Source: a virus. Taken from it: a stretch of 29,472 nt of DNA. Location: positions 1 to 29,472 of the IMG/VR virus record IMGVR_UViG_3300027668_000067; one strand, given 5' to 3'. Numbering within the stretch: position 1 is the first letter of the stretch; each line of letters starts with the position of its first letter. A model generated the notes under the pieces. It had not been told where the DNA came from. It saw only the letters and a list, made by a program, of their open reading frames with translations, and did not search any database. The position numbers were made by a program, and so were the translations under genes. Shown piece after piece: positions 11,146-29,472 of this stretch.

Positions 11146-12093
11146 TCATGCCGCCTTCATAAAGTTATTGTTTCTAATAGCAGTTCTAATTAACTGATGT
11201 CTCTGATGCTTAACTGCTGCGATGTTACCTGATGTACCTTGTCTAACTGTCCCACCATGTGAAGACCAGTCAGTCATAGCATTATACACTGCCCAGTAGT
11301 TAGTACCTAAACGCTTTCTATATACTTGAACGTACTTGTTCCAGATATATTCTAAGCTGCTACTTTTTCTAGGCATATCTGATAGAACCATATCGCCCTG
11401 AGTGATCCCGCTTTCTATTAGACTTAAAGCTGAGCTGCACTTCAATGCTTCAGCAAAGAATTTAAATGCTGCTTGATCAGTGACTGATGTATCTATCCAC
11501 TGTAACCACAGGTCTCTCTCTTTATGGAACACATCCATAGCTTTAGTGATTGCTCTACCGCCATGCTCAATGTCTAGTGACTGTGTATGCTTAGCTTTAT
11601 ACACTGCTACCTCACCACCTACAAAGACTTGTAAGTTTGTACAAGCACTCTGAATAGCTGCTGCGCTAATCATAAACGGCCATGTACCATCGAAGGATGT
11701 TATAGCTAGAAGGCTCAGAGAAGCTGTGTCACCATCTCCAGTTTGATATGTATGCTCTGGTAAACGGTACTGAACAAAGGTTCTAGAGCCATCGTGTGAC
11801 GATCTGATGGTCTCCTGCATTCCATTAATTGATAGGTCTGAACGCTCAATAATGTTTCGAGTAGTATCAATCATATGCTTAGGAGGGACAGCCTTGTAAC
11901 CATGACCATGAACACCTAGCTCTTGACCTGTATCTGTACGATAGATAGCAGCCTTAGAACTAGGGAACTCTGTGCCGTCAGCATAATAAACTAAGGGTGA
12001 TGTAGCTATATCAAAGTCAGCTGATCCATAACCTCCAGCTCTTATATTGTTTAGTGCTGTGTTGTTTGCAAACATCGGTGTAATATTATTCAT
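11146..12093 (-). CDS. DUF932 phage/plasmid-like protein
   Basis: 315 residues. Features of DUF932: YRTDTGQELGVHGHGYKAVP near 50-69 and later a basic block with RAITKAMDVFHKERDLW, followed by NYWAVYNAMTDWSSHGG. DUF932 proteins are common in phages, plasmids and mobile elements; their function is not established, and roles in replication or recombination have been only suggested. GAGG precedes the ATG, and a sigma70-like promoter lies 26-55 bases upstream, making this the first gene of a possible sub-operon running through MazG. Confidence 0.88.
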   Translation of the reverse strand: MNNITPMFANNTALNNIRAGGYGSADFDIATSPLVYYADGTEFPSSKAAIYRTDTGQELGVHGHGYKAVPPKHMIDTTRNIIERSDLSINGMQETIRSSHDGSRTFVQYRLPEHTYQTGDGDTASLSLLAITSFDGTWPFMISAAAIQSACTNLQVFVGGEVAVYKAKHTQSLDIEHGGRAITKAMDVFHKERDLWLQWIDTSVTDQAAFKFFAEALKCSSALSLIESGITQGDMVLSDMPRKSSSLEYIWNKYVQVYRKRLGTNYWAVYNAMTDWSSHGGTVRQGTSGNIAAVKHQRHQLIRTAIRNNNFMKAA

Positions 12094-12366: not shown

Positions 12367-12559
12367 CGTTCACTACCTCTATAGGTGCTAGCTCTACTAA
12401 ATGTTCGTTGTATTTCGGGTAACTTCGGTTAACTTCTGCGAACTTCAAAGCTTCTTCAGGACTAGATGCTGCAACATCTATATAGTAACCACTTACTTTA
12501 CCCATTAGTACTTTGTAAGTCTCTATCTTTTCTTCTGTGTCTATTTGTTTAAAGCTCAT
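12347..12559 (-). CDS. Hypothetical protein (70 aa)
   Basis: Start chosen at ATG 12559 (MSFKQIDTEEKIETYKVLMG), which overlaps the previous gene by 11 bases; a longer reading from 12595 lies mostly inside that gene. The sequence KVSGYYIDVAASSPEEALKF followed by AEV has a beta-strand then helix pattern with SPEEAL, common in small phage alpha/beta proteins that carry a short DUF-type fold (a domain of the kind VxVxAxSxEEAxxxA). No function is assigned. Confidence 0.65.
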   Translation of the reverse strand: MSFKQIDTEEKIETYKVLMGKVSGYYIDVAASSPEEALKFAEVNRSYPKYNEHLVELAPIEVVNDDEIRQ

Positions 12560-12851
12560 GGATTGCCCTATTGTGTGGGTTATAGTTCTGATCAATAGAC
12601 ATTGGTGCTTTTCTTAGCCACTCGTCCATCATCCTTGTACTCTTATCTGGTAGCATTGTTATTGGTGGCCTAACATATACTAAAGCTAGGAAGGCATCGT
12701 CTAATTCTACATAGCTATGACGCTTCAGCCTAGTATGTAATGTATTATAATTAACACCACTGACCTCCGCTAATTGTTTTAAGTTATACCAGTCACCTGA
12801 TACTAGCTGTGGGTTATCACCGAAGTACTGGTGCAATACAAAGTCTACCAT
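12549..12851 (-). CDS. Helix-turn-helix DNA-binding protein (100 aa)
   Basis: Residues 23-44 (NLKQLAEVSGVNYNTLHTRL) are a textbook HTH: first helix LKQLAEVSG, turn, recognition helix YNTLHTRLKR. The N-terminus MVDFVLHQYF and the C-terminal portion (DEWLRKAPMSIDQ) are not recognised. It probably regulates phage or host transcription; the duplicated promoter/operator elements upstream in this operon (14.26 and 15.91 kb) are possible targets, but this is a guess. The ATG overlaps the stop of the 40-aa gene. Confidence 0.75.
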   Translation of the reverse strand: MVDFVLHQYFGDNPQLVSGDWYNLKQLAEVSGVNYNTLHTRLKRHSYVELDDAFLALVYVRPPITMLPDKSTRMMDEWLRKAPMSIDQNYNPHNRAIHEL

Positions 12852-14231: not shown

Positions 14232-14261
14232 AAAACACCTCGTTTGTTTTTGACGTTTTCA

Positions 14262-14290
14262 AAGCTACAGGGAAGTCGATCAATTGTCAA
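14262..14290 (-). promoter_or_regulatory. Leftward promoter, copy 2 of the duplicated element
   Basis: Minus strand TTGACA (14290-14285), 17-base spacer, TAGCTT (14267-14262). The -10 box continues into TAGCTTTGAAAACGTCAAAA, and a 21-base block (14248-14268) is identical to one in the promoter at 15913. Inside it TTTGA-AAACG-TCAAA (about 14249-14263) is an inverted repeat covering the expected start site, as an operator would. Confidence 0.7.
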
Positions 14291-14329
14291 CCGCTTTCCC
14301 TGTGCATTATGCTGTTGTGAAAGAGCGCA

Positions 14330-15369: not shown

Positions 15370-15852
15370 TTACTTGCTCAGGATAGCTAGGATCGCATCG
15401 AGCTTCGAGTCAACCTCTGAAACTTTATTCTCAAGGTCAGTGATCCGGCCATTCATCTTCATAGCTACGCTATTTATTGGGGCAGATTTCTTCGGTGCAG
15501 CCTTCGGCTTCTTAACATCTAAAGCTATCTCGGCTTGCTCAACCGTTTGAGCCTTCGGCTTGACTTTCTTAACAGCCTTCGGCTTGACTTTCTTAGCAGC
15601 CTTCGGCTTTCGGATCAATGAAAGGAACTGAACTGGTACAACCTGATGCTCTCTGAAGTCACTGACTTCACCGTGAGTCATGTAAGAATCCTGATCGCCA
15701 TAGAATTTATTAATCACGGCGTTAAAAACTTTAGTCAATCCGTATCTCTCCGAAGGAGAGGTTGCATGGATATTTGCAAAGTGGCAAGCCACTCCGTAGC
15801 TCTGCTTAGGGGTTGCAATTCGGTTGCTGTCGATCATTTGGAAAGCATTCAT
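15370..15852 (-). CDS. First early gene: KPKA-repeat, coiled-coil protein
   Basis: 160 residues, no recognised family. Residues 1-80 form a globular-looking part (starts MNAFQMIDSNRIATPKQSYG; includes EVSDFREHQVVPVQFLS). Residues 81-123 are a Lys-Pro-Ala linker with four KPKA units at 8-residue period (KPKAAKKV, KPKAVKKV) resembling histone H1 or TolA/FtsK-like basic linkers. Residues 133-160 are a short heptad coiled coil (ITDLENKVSEVDSKLDAILA) that would oligomerise the protein. The combination suggests a multimeric DNA-binding protein. It is the first gene behind promoter 15913-15941 and downstream of the long leader, so it is probably made very early. Function is unknown. Confidence 0.8.
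   Translation of the reverse strand: MNAFQMIDSNRIATPKQSYGVACHFANIHATSPSERYGLTKVFNAVINKFYGDQDSYMTHGEVSDFREHQVVPVQFLSLIRKPKAAKKVKPKAVKKVKPKAQTVEQAEIALDVKKPKAAPKKSAPINSVAMKMNGRITDLENKVSEVDSKLDAILAILSK
15500..15608. repeat. Tandem GCCTTCGGCTT repeats within the first early gene
   Basis: The core GCCTTCGGCT occurs at 15500, 15551, 15575 and 15599. The last three are a 24-base tandem array (21 of 24 positions identical between 15551-15571 and 15575-15595), encoding the 8-residue KPKAxKKV unit. Such arrays expand and contract by slippage. Confidence 0.8.
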
Positions 15853-15912
15853 GTTGTATCACCTTATTTCGATTGAGGCCGAAAGTGGCCGGTTGTCGTT
15901 TTGACGTTTTCA

Positions 15913-15941
15913 AAGCTACTGGAATGCCGAAACGATGTCAA
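15913..15941 (-). promoter_or_regulatory. Leftward promoter, copy 1 of the duplicated element
   Basis: Minus strand TTGACA (15941-15936), 17-base spacer, TAGCTT (15918-15913), then TGAAAACGTCAAAA. The 21-base block 15899-15919 is identical to 14248-14268. The inverted repeat TTTGA-N5-TCAAA overlaps the predicted start site, so a repressor or activator could act here. It would drive the 160-aa gene at 15852. Confidence 0.7.
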
Positions 15942-16044
15942 CAACTTTCTAGCGCGCGATTTTACTTTGTAAAACATGCGAAGAAAGCGTGTGTGATGCA
16001 AGGCACACGAGGAAGACACTGGATGGATGAACAGTTATCGTGGG

Positions 16045-16109
16045 CGCGGTAATGATATTACTGATGCGCGATAAAGAATTTCAATGTGATCGCGGTAATG
16101 ATATTACTG
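16045..16109. repeat. Two 19-base direct repeats with internal inverted repeat
   Basis: CGCGGTAATGATATTACTG occurs at 16045-16063 and 16091-16109, start to start 46 bases. Each contains GTAAT-GAT-ATTAC, and flanking GCGCG sequences can extend the stem. The arrangement is iteron-like or a pair of protein-binding sites. Confidence 0.8.
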
Positions 16110-16130
16110 CGCGGATGAGCAACGACCATT

Positions 16131-16147
16131 AAGACTTTTAAAGTCTT
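16131..16147. repeat. 17-base palindrome, copy 1
   Basis: AAGACTTTTAAAGTCTT: perfect 8-base arms around a central T. Identical copy at 16418-16434 and one-base variant at 16364-16380. Confidence 0.85.
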
Positions 16148-16152
16148 TAAAG

Positions 16153-16229
16153 CGCGAGAGTGAATTAATTTGAAGCCGTCTTTCCCTTCGGGAAGGTAAT
16201 CTTCAAAGGTTTTTTGGTTATCTCTCGCG
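16153..16229 (+). terminator. Nested multi-stem structure with T6 tract
   Basis: Three nested inverted repeats: CGCGAGAG/CTCTCGCG (16153-16160 with 16222-16229), TTTGAAG/CTTCAAA (16169-16175 with 16201-16207) and CTTTCCC/GGGAAGG around TTC (from about 16180). The middle stem is followed by GG and T6 (16210-16215), the form of a rightward intrinsic terminator; the outer stem then closes over the T tract, so the two folds may compete. No rightward promoter was found for it to serve. Confidence 0.55.
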
Positions 16230-16267
16230 GGTGATAATCAGAGATTATTTAATCTGCTAAGTCTCTG

Positions 16268-16305
16268 AAATCCTTTAGGATTTTTAAAGAGATTCTAAAG
16301 AATCT
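16268..16305. repeat. Pair of small adjacent hairpins
   Basis: AAATCC-TTTA-GGATTT at 16268-16283 and AGATTC-TAAA-GAATCT at 16290-16305, both 6-bp stems with TAAA-type loops. Beyond them AAAGTCTC and AAAGTCTTC (about 16308-16325) are complementary to GAGACTTT and GAAGACTTT (about 16355-16371) in interleaved order, permitting alternative folds. Confidence 0.65.
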
Positions 16306-16363
16306 TAAAAGTCTCTAAAGTCTTCTTACTTCGTAAACCAGTGCTAAGACTCTGGAGACTTTG

Positions 16364-16380
16364 AAGACTTTAAAAGTCTT
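16364..16380. repeat. 17-base palindrome, copy 2
   Basis: AAGACTTTAAAAGTCTT: the same 8-base arms with a central A instead of T. Confidence 0.85.
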
Positions 16381-16417
16381 TATGTGGGTGATGGGCTTGA
16401 CAGGCTATAGAATCTAT

Positions 16418-16434
16418 AAGACTTTTAAAGTCTT
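16418..16434. repeat. 17-base palindrome, copy 3
   Basis: AAGACTTTTAAAGTCTT, identical to copy 1. It is followed 2 bases later by the first G7 tract. Half-related CTTTAAAG motifs recur at about 16530-16548. Confidence 0.85.
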
Positions 16435-16436
16435 TA

Positions 16437-16488
16437 GGGGGGGCAGGTGGCCATGGGGGGGTACTGGGTATATATATACATGCATATA
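16437..16488 (+). other. G-rich tract next to alternating AT tract
   Basis: Two runs of seven G (16437-16443 and 16455-16461), two GG pairs between them and GGG at 16466-16468 could fold as a G-quadruplex on the + strand. Directly after comes TATATATACATGCATATACA (16469-16488), an alternating purine-pyrimidine sequence prone to unwinding or Z-form. Structure is seen; folding is inference. Confidence 0.55.
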
Positions 16489-16636
16489 CATTTTGCAGGG
16501 GAAATGGTTGTATACTAGATAGCGCCGCAGCTTTAAAGACTTTAAAGGGTAAACAAGAAGCTTAGACACCGCTACAAAAGGCTTTAAAACGGGGAGATAG
16601 ATGAACACACATACGTGGCTACTAAATCTATGTATG

Positions 16637-16652
16637 TAACCCGGTGGGGTTA
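16637..16652 (-). other. 5'-end hairpin of the long leftward transcript
   Basis: TAACCC-CACC-GGGTTA (minus strand) sits where the promoter at 16658-16686 should start transcription (about 16651), so the RNA would begin with a 6-bp stem-loop. Such 5' hairpins protect messages from decay; alternatively it may be an operator. Confidence 0.5.
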
Positions 16653-16657
16653 ATATG

Positions 16658-16686
16658 ATTATAGGGTCGTATGAGCACTTTGTCAA
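16658..16686 (-). promoter_or_regulatory. Perfect-consensus sigma70 leftward promoter
   Basis: Minus strand TTGACA (16686-16681), 17-base spacer, TATAAT (16663-16658): all twelve consensus bases. Predicted start near 16651, giving an approximately 800-base leader before the first gene at 15852. The -10 is preceded by CCC, as in the rightward partner. Confidence 0.85.
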
Positions 16687-16716: not shown

Positions 16717-16745
16717 TTGACAACACCCCGTATTCGCCCTATAAT
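16717..16745 (+). promoter_or_regulatory. Perfect-consensus sigma70 rightward promoter for the late operon
   Basis: TTGACA (16717-16722), 17-base spacer, TATAAT (16740-16745), start near 16752, 24 bases before the terminase ATG. It is back to back with the leftward promoter, with 30 bases between the -35 boxes, so one regulator could control both. It implies that host polymerase transcribes structural genes. Confidence 0.88.
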
Positions 16746-16775: not shown

Positions 16776-17174
16776 ATGTCCAACAAGAAAGAACTAACAA
16801 CCAAACAAGAAGCATTTCTAGAACATCTAGTATCTTGTGGAGGGGATGCTAAGCATGCAGCAGGTCTCGCAGGCTATGCTGAGAGCAGTTACCCCGCAGT
16901 TGTTAAGGCTTTAAAGACAGAGATACTAGATGTAGCTACAAATATACTAGCGCAGAGCGCACCTAAAGCTGCTTTAAAGCTTGTAAGTATCATGGACAGT
17001 GCAGAACCTATCCCACAAGCTAACATGCGTATACAAGCAGCACAGACCATTCTAGACCGTGTAGGCTTAGGCAAGACAGATAGACTAGATGTTACCGTTA
17101 ATACTGCTGGTGGTTTGTTTATACTCCCCGCTAAAACAGAAACAGTAATAGAAGGTACTTATGAGGAGGTCTAG
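16776..17174 (+). CDS. terS: Terminase small subunit
   Basis: 132 residues. The N-terminal LTTKQEAFLEHLVSCGGDAK (7-26) and AAGLAGYAESSYPAVVKAL (28-46) are the HTH DNA-recognition domain of the Terminase_2 type, where a TxKQExFxxxxxxxGGDxxxAA pattern is characteristic. The central region (ANILAQSAPKAALKLVSIMD-like helices) would oligomerise, and the end is the presumed large-subunit contact. It recognises phage DNA and directs packaging by the large subunit encoded two genes on. First gene of the late operon, directly after the consensus promoter. Confidence 0.9.
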   Translation: MSNKKELTTKQEAFLEHLVSCGGDAKHAAGLAGYAESSYPAVVKALKTEILDVATNILAQSAPKAALKLVSIMDSAEPIPQANMRIQAAQTILDRVGLGKTDRLDVTVNTAGGLFILPAKTETVIEGTYEEV

Positions 17175-27775: not shown

Positions 27776-29472
27776 ATGGCAGGATCAAATTATACACGAC
27801 AAAGCAGTTTTGATGATGGCGATGTAGTAACGGCGGCGTTATTTAACGATGAGTACAACAAACTCTTAAATGCTTTTGTCTATGCTTCTACAGGAACCAC
27901 TGGACACCAACATGATGGTGGAGCTGGTGAAGGTGGAAACATTGAAATTATTGGTGATCAAGATTTTTTAAATAAAATTTTAGTTGACAGCACTAACAAC
28001 CGCTGGGGCTTCTATGTTCAAGTAAGCAGCGGAACCGTGGAGCAGATACGCATTCAAGACGGTGCAATTGTACCTGTAACAGATAATGATATTGATCTGG
28101 GTACAACCTCACTACAGTTTAAAGATGCATTCATTAATGGCACACTGGAAGCTGATGCAATAACAATAGCTGGTATTACGCTTTCAGAAACTATTGCAGA
28201 TACTGTAGGCGCAATGGTATCAAGCAACACTGAAACAAACATCACAGTATCTTATCAAGACGCTGACAATACCTTAGACTTTGCAATTGGGACACTAAAT
28301 CAAAGCACTACCGGAAACGCTGCAACAGCTACTGCGCTTGCTACAGCCCGAACAATCCACGGTGTATCATTTGACGGCACAGCTAACATTGACTTAGCTG
28401 AAGTCATTTCAGACACCGTAGGCGCAATGTTTAGCGGCAACACTGAAACAGGTGTAACTGTAACCTATCAAGATAGTGACAACACTATTGACTTAGTAGT
28501 TTCTGGGTCAGCAGATACAACAGGTAATGCAGCAACTGCTACAGCACTTGAAACTGCTAGAACTATTGGTGGTACTTCGTTTGACGGTTCTGCTAACATT
28601 GCTGTTGGATTAGCTGCTACAGCTACTGCACTTGCTACAGCCCGAACTATTGGTGGAACTTCTTTTGATGGCACTGCTAACATCGCTGTTGGATTAGCTG
28701 CTACAGCTACAGAAGCTGCAAACGTAACAGCCGTTGCAAACAACACCGCAAATGAAACTGTATTTGTTACTTTTGTAGATGGCGCTACAGGAACACAAGG
28801 AATTGAAACTGACACAGACTTAACATACAACCCTTCCACAGGCTTGTTAGGTTTTGTAGGTGTTTCAGGTACTGGTGCAGTTAAAGTACCCGCTGGTACA
28901 ACAGGCCAACGTCCTACCGCAGCAGCAGGTCAATTACGGTATAACTCCACTACAGGTAAGTTTGAAGGCTACACGGATTCGTGGGGAGACATCGGAGGCG
29001 GCGAAGCTACTTTTACTTTGAATACTATGACAGGCGATGGAAGCGACACAACGCTTACTATGTCTGTAACACCTGCTTCTGAAAACTCAATACAAGTGTA
29101 CTTTGATGGTGTGTATCAACATAAAGATACCTTTAGCTTTAGCGGGACAACACTTACTTTTAGTACAGCTCCTGCAAGCGGAGTAAAAGTAGAAGTGATG
29201 GTTATCTCTACTGTCCTTGCTTCTACAACTCCGGGCGATGGTACAGTAACTCTTGCTAAGATGGCTCAAAACTCTATTGATAGTCCACAGTATGTTGACG
29301 GCTCAATAGACACAGCACATTTAGCTGATGACGGAATTACAAGTGCTAAACTAGCTCACGCTCTTGATGTTGTAACTTCAGTAAGTGTAGGTGGCGCGAG
29401 TAACGGTGTAATCCTAACACAAGGCGATATAGCCCTTAAAAATGGTGGAACTAGGTCAACAGTTAAGTTCTA
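27776..29472 (+). CDS. Tail fibre/spike protein, cut by the window edge
   Basis: Starts at ATG 27776, 3 bases after the previous stop, and stays open to the end (565 codons visible). The N-terminus (SNYTRQSSFDDGDVVTAALF; ASTGTTGHQHDGGAGEGG) looks like a virion-attachment domain. Then come two ISDTVGAM / NTET / YQDxDNT units (nt 28196-28300 and 28406-28500) and three ATARTI-GG-SFDGTANI units (nt about 28320, 28530, 28617), a repetitive beta shaft. Later YNSTTGKFEGYTDSWGDIGG is a motif of phage tail fibres. It would contact the host receptor; the C-terminal receptor domain lies outside the window. Confidence 0.88.
   Translation, partial: MAGSNYTRQSSFDDGDVVTAALFNDEYNKLLNAFVYASTGTTGHQHDGGAGEGGNIEIIGDQDFLNKILVDSTNNRWGFYVQVSSGTVEQIRIQDGAIVPVTDNDIDLGTTSLQFKDAFINGTLEADAITIAGITLSETIADTVGAMVSSNTETNITVSYQDADNTLDFAIGTLNQSTTGNAATATALATARTIHGVSFDGTANIDLAEVISDTVGAMFSGNTETGVTVTYQDSDNTIDLVVSGSADTTGNAATATALETARTIGGTSFDGSANIAVGLAATATALATARTIGGTSFDGTANIAVGLAATATEAANVTAVANNTANETVFVTFVDGATGTQGIETDTDLTYNPSTGLLGFVGVSGTGAVKVPAGTTGQRPTAAAGQLRYNSTTGKFEGYTDSWGDIGGGEATFTLNTMTGDGSDTTLTMSVTPASENSIQVYFDGVYQHKDTFSFSGTTLTFSTAPASGVKVEVMVISTVLASTTPGDGTVTLAKMAQNSIDSPQYVDGSIDTAHLADDGITSAKLAHALDVVTSVSVGGASNGVILTQGDIALKNGGTRSTVKF

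Follow-up and report, generated by a model that had tools for sequence, protein, structure and literature searches.

We find that the gene-free DNA between the divergent early and late operons of a marine phage is probably, judging from its sequence and that of its relatives, a one-per-genome control region, conserved in a very abundant phage group and serving as a replication start or an early/late switch. Our preferred interpretation, to which we assign a probability of about 0.5, is that the cluster would combine an origin with an early control region in a single-copy, cis-acting DNA module at the early/late junction; on the best reading, this module is previously undescribed. Sequence analysis establishes the anatomy of the region, the conservation of its core, its one-per-locus occurrence, its promoters and the linkage of its palindromes to gene A, the first early gene; binding by protein A, opening of the core and the start of replication there are what we infer. 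A preliminary description of positions 16045–16488 had named a candidate replication origin or master switch: the label fits, but the sequence does not tell the two apart and does not single out an origin. Most of the evidence comes from features absent from that description, namely the two promoters, the conserved core and gene A with its linkage to the palindromes.

The window (the whole stretch analysed, positions 1–29,472 of IMGVR_UViG_3300027668_000067) is a fragment of about half a genome. It comes from a marine phage that is distant kin to HTVC103P-type pelagiphages. The left half reads leftward and encodes RNR, an endonuclease, a Cas4-type exonuclease, a PolA-type DNA polymerase, a primase-helicase and a gp2.5-like SSB, and the right half reads rightward and encodes the small and large terminase subunits, portal and capsid. 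The closest isolates by TerL are the Pelagibacter phages HTVC115P, HTVC103P and HTVC104P (61–64% identity), followed by CRP roseophages and HMO-2011 (47–50%); no DNA-level similarity to annotated phages was found. These affinities agree with the unclassified 'group IV' phages (PMC8528129), which are related to the HTVC103P type. Two further early-side reading frames were noted, namely a DUF932 protein in the early operon (11146–12093, Pfam E 5.5e-22) and a 100-aa ORF (12549–12851) with a weak, below-cut-off match to HTH_8 (Fis family), possibly a further DNA-binding protein.

Anatomy of the cluster and its promoters

The elements listed in the preliminary description were all recovered. Two exact 19-bp direct repeats (CGCGGTAATGATATTACTG, + strand) lie at 16045–16063, where the repeat includes GTAAT-GAT-ATTAC, and at 16091–16109; exact copies occur in only a few close relatives. 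The 17-bp palindrome AAGACTTTWAAAGTCTT, composed of 8-bp arms around a free central base, is present in three exact copies, as AAGACTTTTAAAGTCTT at 16131–16147 and 16418–16434 and as AAGACTTTAAAAGTCTT at 16364–16380, and no other match within two mismatches was found in the 29.5 kb. The triple-nested inverted repeat (16153–16229) is formed by outer arms CGCGAGAG (16153–16160) and CTCTCGCG (16222–16229), middle arms TTTGAAG (16169–16175) and CTTCAAA (16201–16207), and inner arms TTCCC (16182–16186) and GGGAA (16190–16194); with its TTC apical loop and T6 tract (16210–16215), it is terminator-like for rightward RNA. Its inner stem recurs in several relatives at an equal distance from the core, with the TTC loop kept and the stem bases changed. 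Further perfect palindromes occupy 16137–16151, 16268–16283, 16290–16305 and 16531–16547 (CTTTAAAGACTTTAAAG), and the two G7 runs (16437–16443 and 16455–16461) and the alternating AT tract TATATATATAC (16469–16479) are likewise present. An upstream copy of the TGTAWACYAG box, CGTAAACCAG (16332–16341, + strand), corresponds to conserved AAACTAG columns in the alignment of relatives. The functional unit runs beyond the originally assigned end at 16488, to ~16547 with the core and to 16745 with the promoters.

Several of these elements exceed chance. Seven palindromes with arms of at least 7 occur in 520 nt, as compared with a mean of 0.23 when the region was simulated with a first-order Markov model (maximum 3 of 300), and four have arms of at least 8 versus 0.07 simulated. 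Ordinary intergenic clutter, in which terminators and AT-rich palindromes share no common function, is therefore very improbable: one terminator-like hairpin does point right, but palindrome density is ~30 times expectation, conservation exceeds that of synonymous sites, and the palindrome sites are missing elsewhere in relatives. The earlier characterization as a dense cis-element cluster with repeated sites, more than termination would explain, is upheld by the occurrence of the palindrome in relatives and by the neighbouring core.

Two divergent consensus sigma-70 promoters, both TTGACA-17-TATAAT (12/12), stand at the right edge of the cluster with their −35 boxes 30 bp apart. The early promoter PL (16658–16686, − strand) is kept in relatives and in HTVC103P and HTVC115P. 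PR (16717–16745, + strand), directed toward the late genes and their first member, terS (terminase small subunit; 16776–17174, + strand, PHROG_2538 E 2e-5), is kept as far as HMO-2011 and CRP-13, and is perfect in HMO-2011, CRP-2 and CRP-13. Since the first leftward ORF starts at 15852, the position of PL predicts an untranslated leader of ~800 nt (15853–16651, − strand) that would hold the whole cluster; its start site is likewise predicted from the promoter. A hairpin with arms AACCC and GGGTT (16638–16651, − strand) would form at the 5′ end of the leader RNA and falls in a block conserved in relatives, consistent with a function. An extra promoter within the core was considered and rejected, as no convincing −35/−10 pair was present.

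Other features of the leader side were observed. A stretch of ~50 bp occurs twice in the window (14249–14298 and 15900–15949, 78% identical), the copy at 15900 carrying a leftward TTGACA element ahead of an early gene; this may be a secondary early promoter present in two copies. In many relatives, gene A is immediately preceded by a long perfect hairpin with 18-bp arms, e.g. TTAGTATCTCCATAACCT(TTTAT), which lies ~380–390 nt left of the core in six of them (L068, L069, L074, L078, L175 and L196) and similarly in L130 and L116. In L069, a second hairpin adjoins the long one and overlaps the ribosome binding site. These hairpins may regulate how A is translated or how the RNA is processed.

A single conserved core at the early/late junction

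Alignment of the leaders of 32 diverse relatives delimited a conserved core at 16441–16547, with the order GGCAGGTGGCCAT, G/C tract, TATATATAYAC...ACATTTT, ~13 nt and TGTAWACYAG. In the window it consists of a left block GGGCAGGTGGCCAT (16441–16454, + strand; mean pairwise identity 0.78 across relatives), the G/C tract (16455–16468), an AT block TATATATATACATGCATATACATTTTGC (16469–16496, + strand; 0.82), which is part of the scan pattern, and the box TGTATACTAGATAG (16509–16522, + strand; 0.86), and it is closed by the palindrome CTTTAAAGACTTTAAAG. Mean pairwise identity is 0.72 over the whole core, 0.82 in the AT block and 0.86 in TGTAWACYAGATAG, as compared with 0.49 at TerL four-fold degenerate sites and 0.40–0.58 in the remaining leader of the same genomes. 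Scanning with a gapped core pattern retrieved more than a hundred stretches from IMG/VR and none from 257 Gb of bacterial and archaeal genome sequence. Each of 207 core loci (130 distinct; from metagenomic contigs, not independent) carries one core and none carries two, so the region behaves as a single conserved non-coding site per locus.

The core appears to act as DNA. The G/C tract has G on the + strand here and C on the + strand in many relatives, swapping strands at one fixed place as if the strand were irrelevant, and among ten predicted RNA pairs in the core only one shows a compensatory change, with almost no covariation energy. These two properties argue against a function as early leader RNA (for instance an antiterminator, a riboregulator or a small early RNA), which we consider quite improbable. 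Transcripts from PL are predicted to span the whole cluster, and the 5′ hairpin and the nested hairpin, with its UUCG-type loop and T6, are RNA-like; however, no Rfam match was found, and the core is kept in HMO-2011-type phages that have no visible leader promoter.

We next describe the core outside the near relatives, using a profile built from 94 cores and run against isolate phage genomes. It matched HTVC103P (E 9e-5), CRP-1 (0.0016), HTVC115P (0.0027) and HTVC104P (0.0036), and weakly HMO-2011 (0.14); with more records, CRP-603 (0.0067), CRP-2 (0.08) and CRP-345 (0.36) were added. HTVC103P, HTVC115P and CRP-1 each yielded one match above background. In the pelagiphages, CRP-1, CRP-603, CRP-2, CRP-345 and HMO-2011, the match falls at the divergent early/late junction in a constant orientation to the early and late genes; the diverged core spans different hosts and different replication gene sets. 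A similar arrangement was seen by eye in CRP-345 and, without score support, in CRP-9, CRP-13 and CRP-207. The best profile match in CRP-13, at 28930 (E 0.19), lies inside a coding region, whereas its junction site was visible only by eye, and weak scores alone are accordingly not proof. No core was found at the junction of HTVC033P, CRP-3, CRP-235 or CRP-738, the annotated gap being short in the last three.

In the divergent region of HTVC103P, HTVC104P and HTVC115P, the homologous core is accompanied by TGTWAACTAG boxes, a PL/PR pair and adjacent terS as in the window, and in HTVC103P every box is confined to the divergent intergenic region. Unlike the window, these three phages have lower G+C and a low core score (E 1e-4 to 6e-3), and neither AAGACTTTWAAAGTCTT palindromes nor gene A were seen in them. 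The corresponding region of HMO-2011 and the CRP phages resembles the window in the place and orientation of the diverged core, in a PR-like promoter 157–272 bp away and, in most, in lineage-specific palindromes; it differs in that the terminase genes are several kb off, the palindromes are different and no PL was seen at this place. HMO-2011 and CRP-1 differ further in having a separate primase and a DnaB-like helicase.

What chiefly speaks against a packaging initiation site (pac or cos), whose repeats would be TerS binding sites, is the distance to the terminase genes (~4.7 kb in CRP-1, ~8.5 kb in HMO-2011): the core follows the junction and not the terminase. Such a site would account for the position of terS, 195–465 nt beyond the core in 127 of the 127 loci of this group where terS is visible, and for the many contigs that end within the leader; yet these ends are scattered over ~1 kb with no fixed terminus. 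The repeats just upstream of terS recall lambda cosB or a P22-type pac, but in HMO-2011 and the CRP phages the element is not found alongside terS, and we regard packaging as improbable. Among IMG/VR relatives, contig ends pile up 0.5–1.5 kb before TerL and 10–12 kb after it, which suggests population-level variation or assembly breaks. An attachment site was also rejected, as HMO-2011 and CRP-1 have their integrase well apart from the core, 5–7 kb into the early genes.

Palindromes and gene A

Gene A (15370–15852, − strand), the first gene of the leftward early operon, encodes a 160-aa protein that is a candidate binder of the palindromes because their presence tracks the gene. Relatives were collected via TerL and typed by their first leftward gene as A-type or as an unrelated B-type; many stayed untyped, as contig ends pile up in the leader. 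Among the 43 typed relatives, the palindrome (within one mismatch) was present in 26 of 26 A-type and 0 of 17 B-type loci, and it was missing also in four relatives with neither A nor B. This split occurs even where TerL is 98–100% identical, with the window and L008 being A-type and L007 and L009 B-type. After dereplication (16 A and 10 B), A leaders contained 23 exact palindromes and B leaders none, and no exact copy was found outside the leaders in the A loci. The preliminary description had proposed a search of syntenic relatives, with absence of the palindromes counting against it; the palindrome occurs at the same place in dozens of them and nowhere else in their flanks.

Searches that started from other features gave a consistent result. 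When contigs were sought by the palindrome alone, those bearing a terminase also encoded A, 141–408 nt off, where the contig was long enough; L142 and L151, with a remote A look-alike at most, are exceptions, and L119 has a marginal look-alike. Half of the contigs retrieved by this bare pattern had neither terminase nor A and were set aside as probable chance matches in a huge AT-rich collection. In the core-selected set, the exact palindrome was paired with A in 36 of 37 loci, the exception again being L142, while 25 loci, in which A is mostly diverged, lack the exact palindrome and some of these carry another perfect palindrome instead. Thus the palindrome implies A, but A does not always come with this palindrome. 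Since the gene and the palindromes are neighbours, recombination could have moved them together and so produced part of the association. A functional link is nevertheless favoured, because the exact 17-mer persists while the identity of A drops to ~20–40%.

We infer that protein A binds DNA. Its AlphaFold2 model comprises a helical domain (residues 10–80, pLDDT above 90), a disordered basic linker rich in Lys, Pro and Ala, and a C-terminal coiled-coil helix. No family match was obtained, Foldseek returned nothing from PDB or BFVD at E ≤ 0.001, the best VIA-align Z of 4.1 was uninformative, and no relation to any initiator was detectable.

Other lineages carry other palindromes at the same place. 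Two copies of TGTGATCACA occur in each of CRP-1 and CRP-13 and four in CRP-603, and GTTTAANNTTAAAC is present in the leader of CRP-9 and CRP-13; in the complete CRP-1 and CRP-13 genomes, the CRP palindromes are confined to the early/late junction region. The box TGTWAACYA[GC] is likewise junction-confined in HTVC103P (three copies), CRP-1 (two) and CRP-13 (one), and has further copies elsewhere in HMO-2011 and the window. As read from these sequences, the combination of a constant core and interchangeable palindromes is what an origin whose initiator sites vary by lineage would show, and a regulatory hub would show it too. The junction of CRP phages (L301, L305, L306, L298 and L212) also carries TTGTGATCACAA, which resembles CRP/FNR-family sites and is perhaps read by a host regulator.

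Possible roles in replication start and early/late control

Several sequence properties bear on the origin. At 30 bp the AT core is among the 1.6% most easily unwound segments, but at 60–200 bp it falls only in the top 12–16%, and the cluster is not the most readily melted part of the window, 14.4–15.3 kb being less stable. GC skew, which had been proposed as a check, lends no independent support, because it is confounded by the gene orientation that it tracks. The cumulative minimum falls on the early side, 0.4–1.3 kb away from the core; the two clear maxima fall at the convergent gene switch and not opposite the core, and three maxima found where the rotated array begins are artefacts of net skew. 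A skew switch independent of gene orientation is not strictly required of a phage origin. The leader contains no DnaA box (no TTATNCACA, nor TTATCCACA with one mismatch) and no exact IHF consensus site. No O/P or other known initiator was found among the scanned early proteins of the window, itself about half a genome. As established for T7, phages with a T7-like PolA and a fused primase-helicase need no dedicated initiator, a further point against the origin reading.

The cluster might instead be a transcriptional master switch without an origin, in which A and other factors bridge the palindromes and core, silence PL after the early phase or delay PR, with the divergent promoters competing. 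We hold this to be possible, though doubtful. The two perfect promoters back to back would suit it, as would the 157–272 bp between core and PR wherever PR is recognised and the nature of A, a first early gene product with a basic linker and coiled coil as in bridging DNA-binding proteins. However, the palindromes are 100–520 bp downstream of the PL start, clear of both PL and PR, HMO-2011 and the CRP phages keep the core where PL is not seen, and consensus promoters would need no upstream activating core.

For the combined origin and early control region, we propose the following sequence of events. Host RNA polymerase would begin at PL and read through the conserved core, whose AT block is flanked by the G/C tract and TGTAWACYAG boxes. 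Protein A, as the first product of the PL transcript, could bind the flanking palindromes in dimeric or higher oligomeric form, and the A–DNA complex might open the core or hold it open. The opened core would then be a loading site for the phage helicase-primase and polymerase, with the PL RNA possibly acting as primer. More tentatively, and with less confidence than we place in the module itself, HTVC103P-type and HMO-2011-type phages may share an undescribed origin class, in which a universal core (G/C tract, AT block and TGTWAACCA box) is combined with a swappable palindrome array and its cognate DNA-binding protein, e.g. A.

HMO-2011-type phages have been described as dominant in the ocean and widely distributed there (PMC9038755). 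We found no such element described in the papers examined on HTVC103P-type pelagiphages, nothing on replication start or early/late separation in that on HMO-2011-type phages, and no described origin in either type. One short conserved element, at a constant place in phages that infect SAR11, SAR116 and Roseobacter, is a direct experimental target, and the swap of palindrome and protein A is a natural test of protein-to-site matching.

The proposed combined module shares features with two known types of origin and differs from each. As in lambda-type origins with O-protein iterons, repeated palindromic sites, several copies of one palindrome, adjoin an AT-rich block, predicted transcription runs through the region, and the palindrome sequence shifts between lineages with the adjacent protein. 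Unlike lambda, the window has no O or P homologue and A is a candidate binder only, the sites are irregularly spaced and lie outside the initiator gene, and unwinding is predicted only. As in the T7 primary origin, the early side opens with a promoter that reads through an AT-rich block, and the window encodes a PolA-type polymerase, a gp4-like primase-helicase and a gp2.5-like SSB; unlike T7, the window has no identified phage RNA polymerase, it has palindromic sites and A in addition, and its core is far more conserved.
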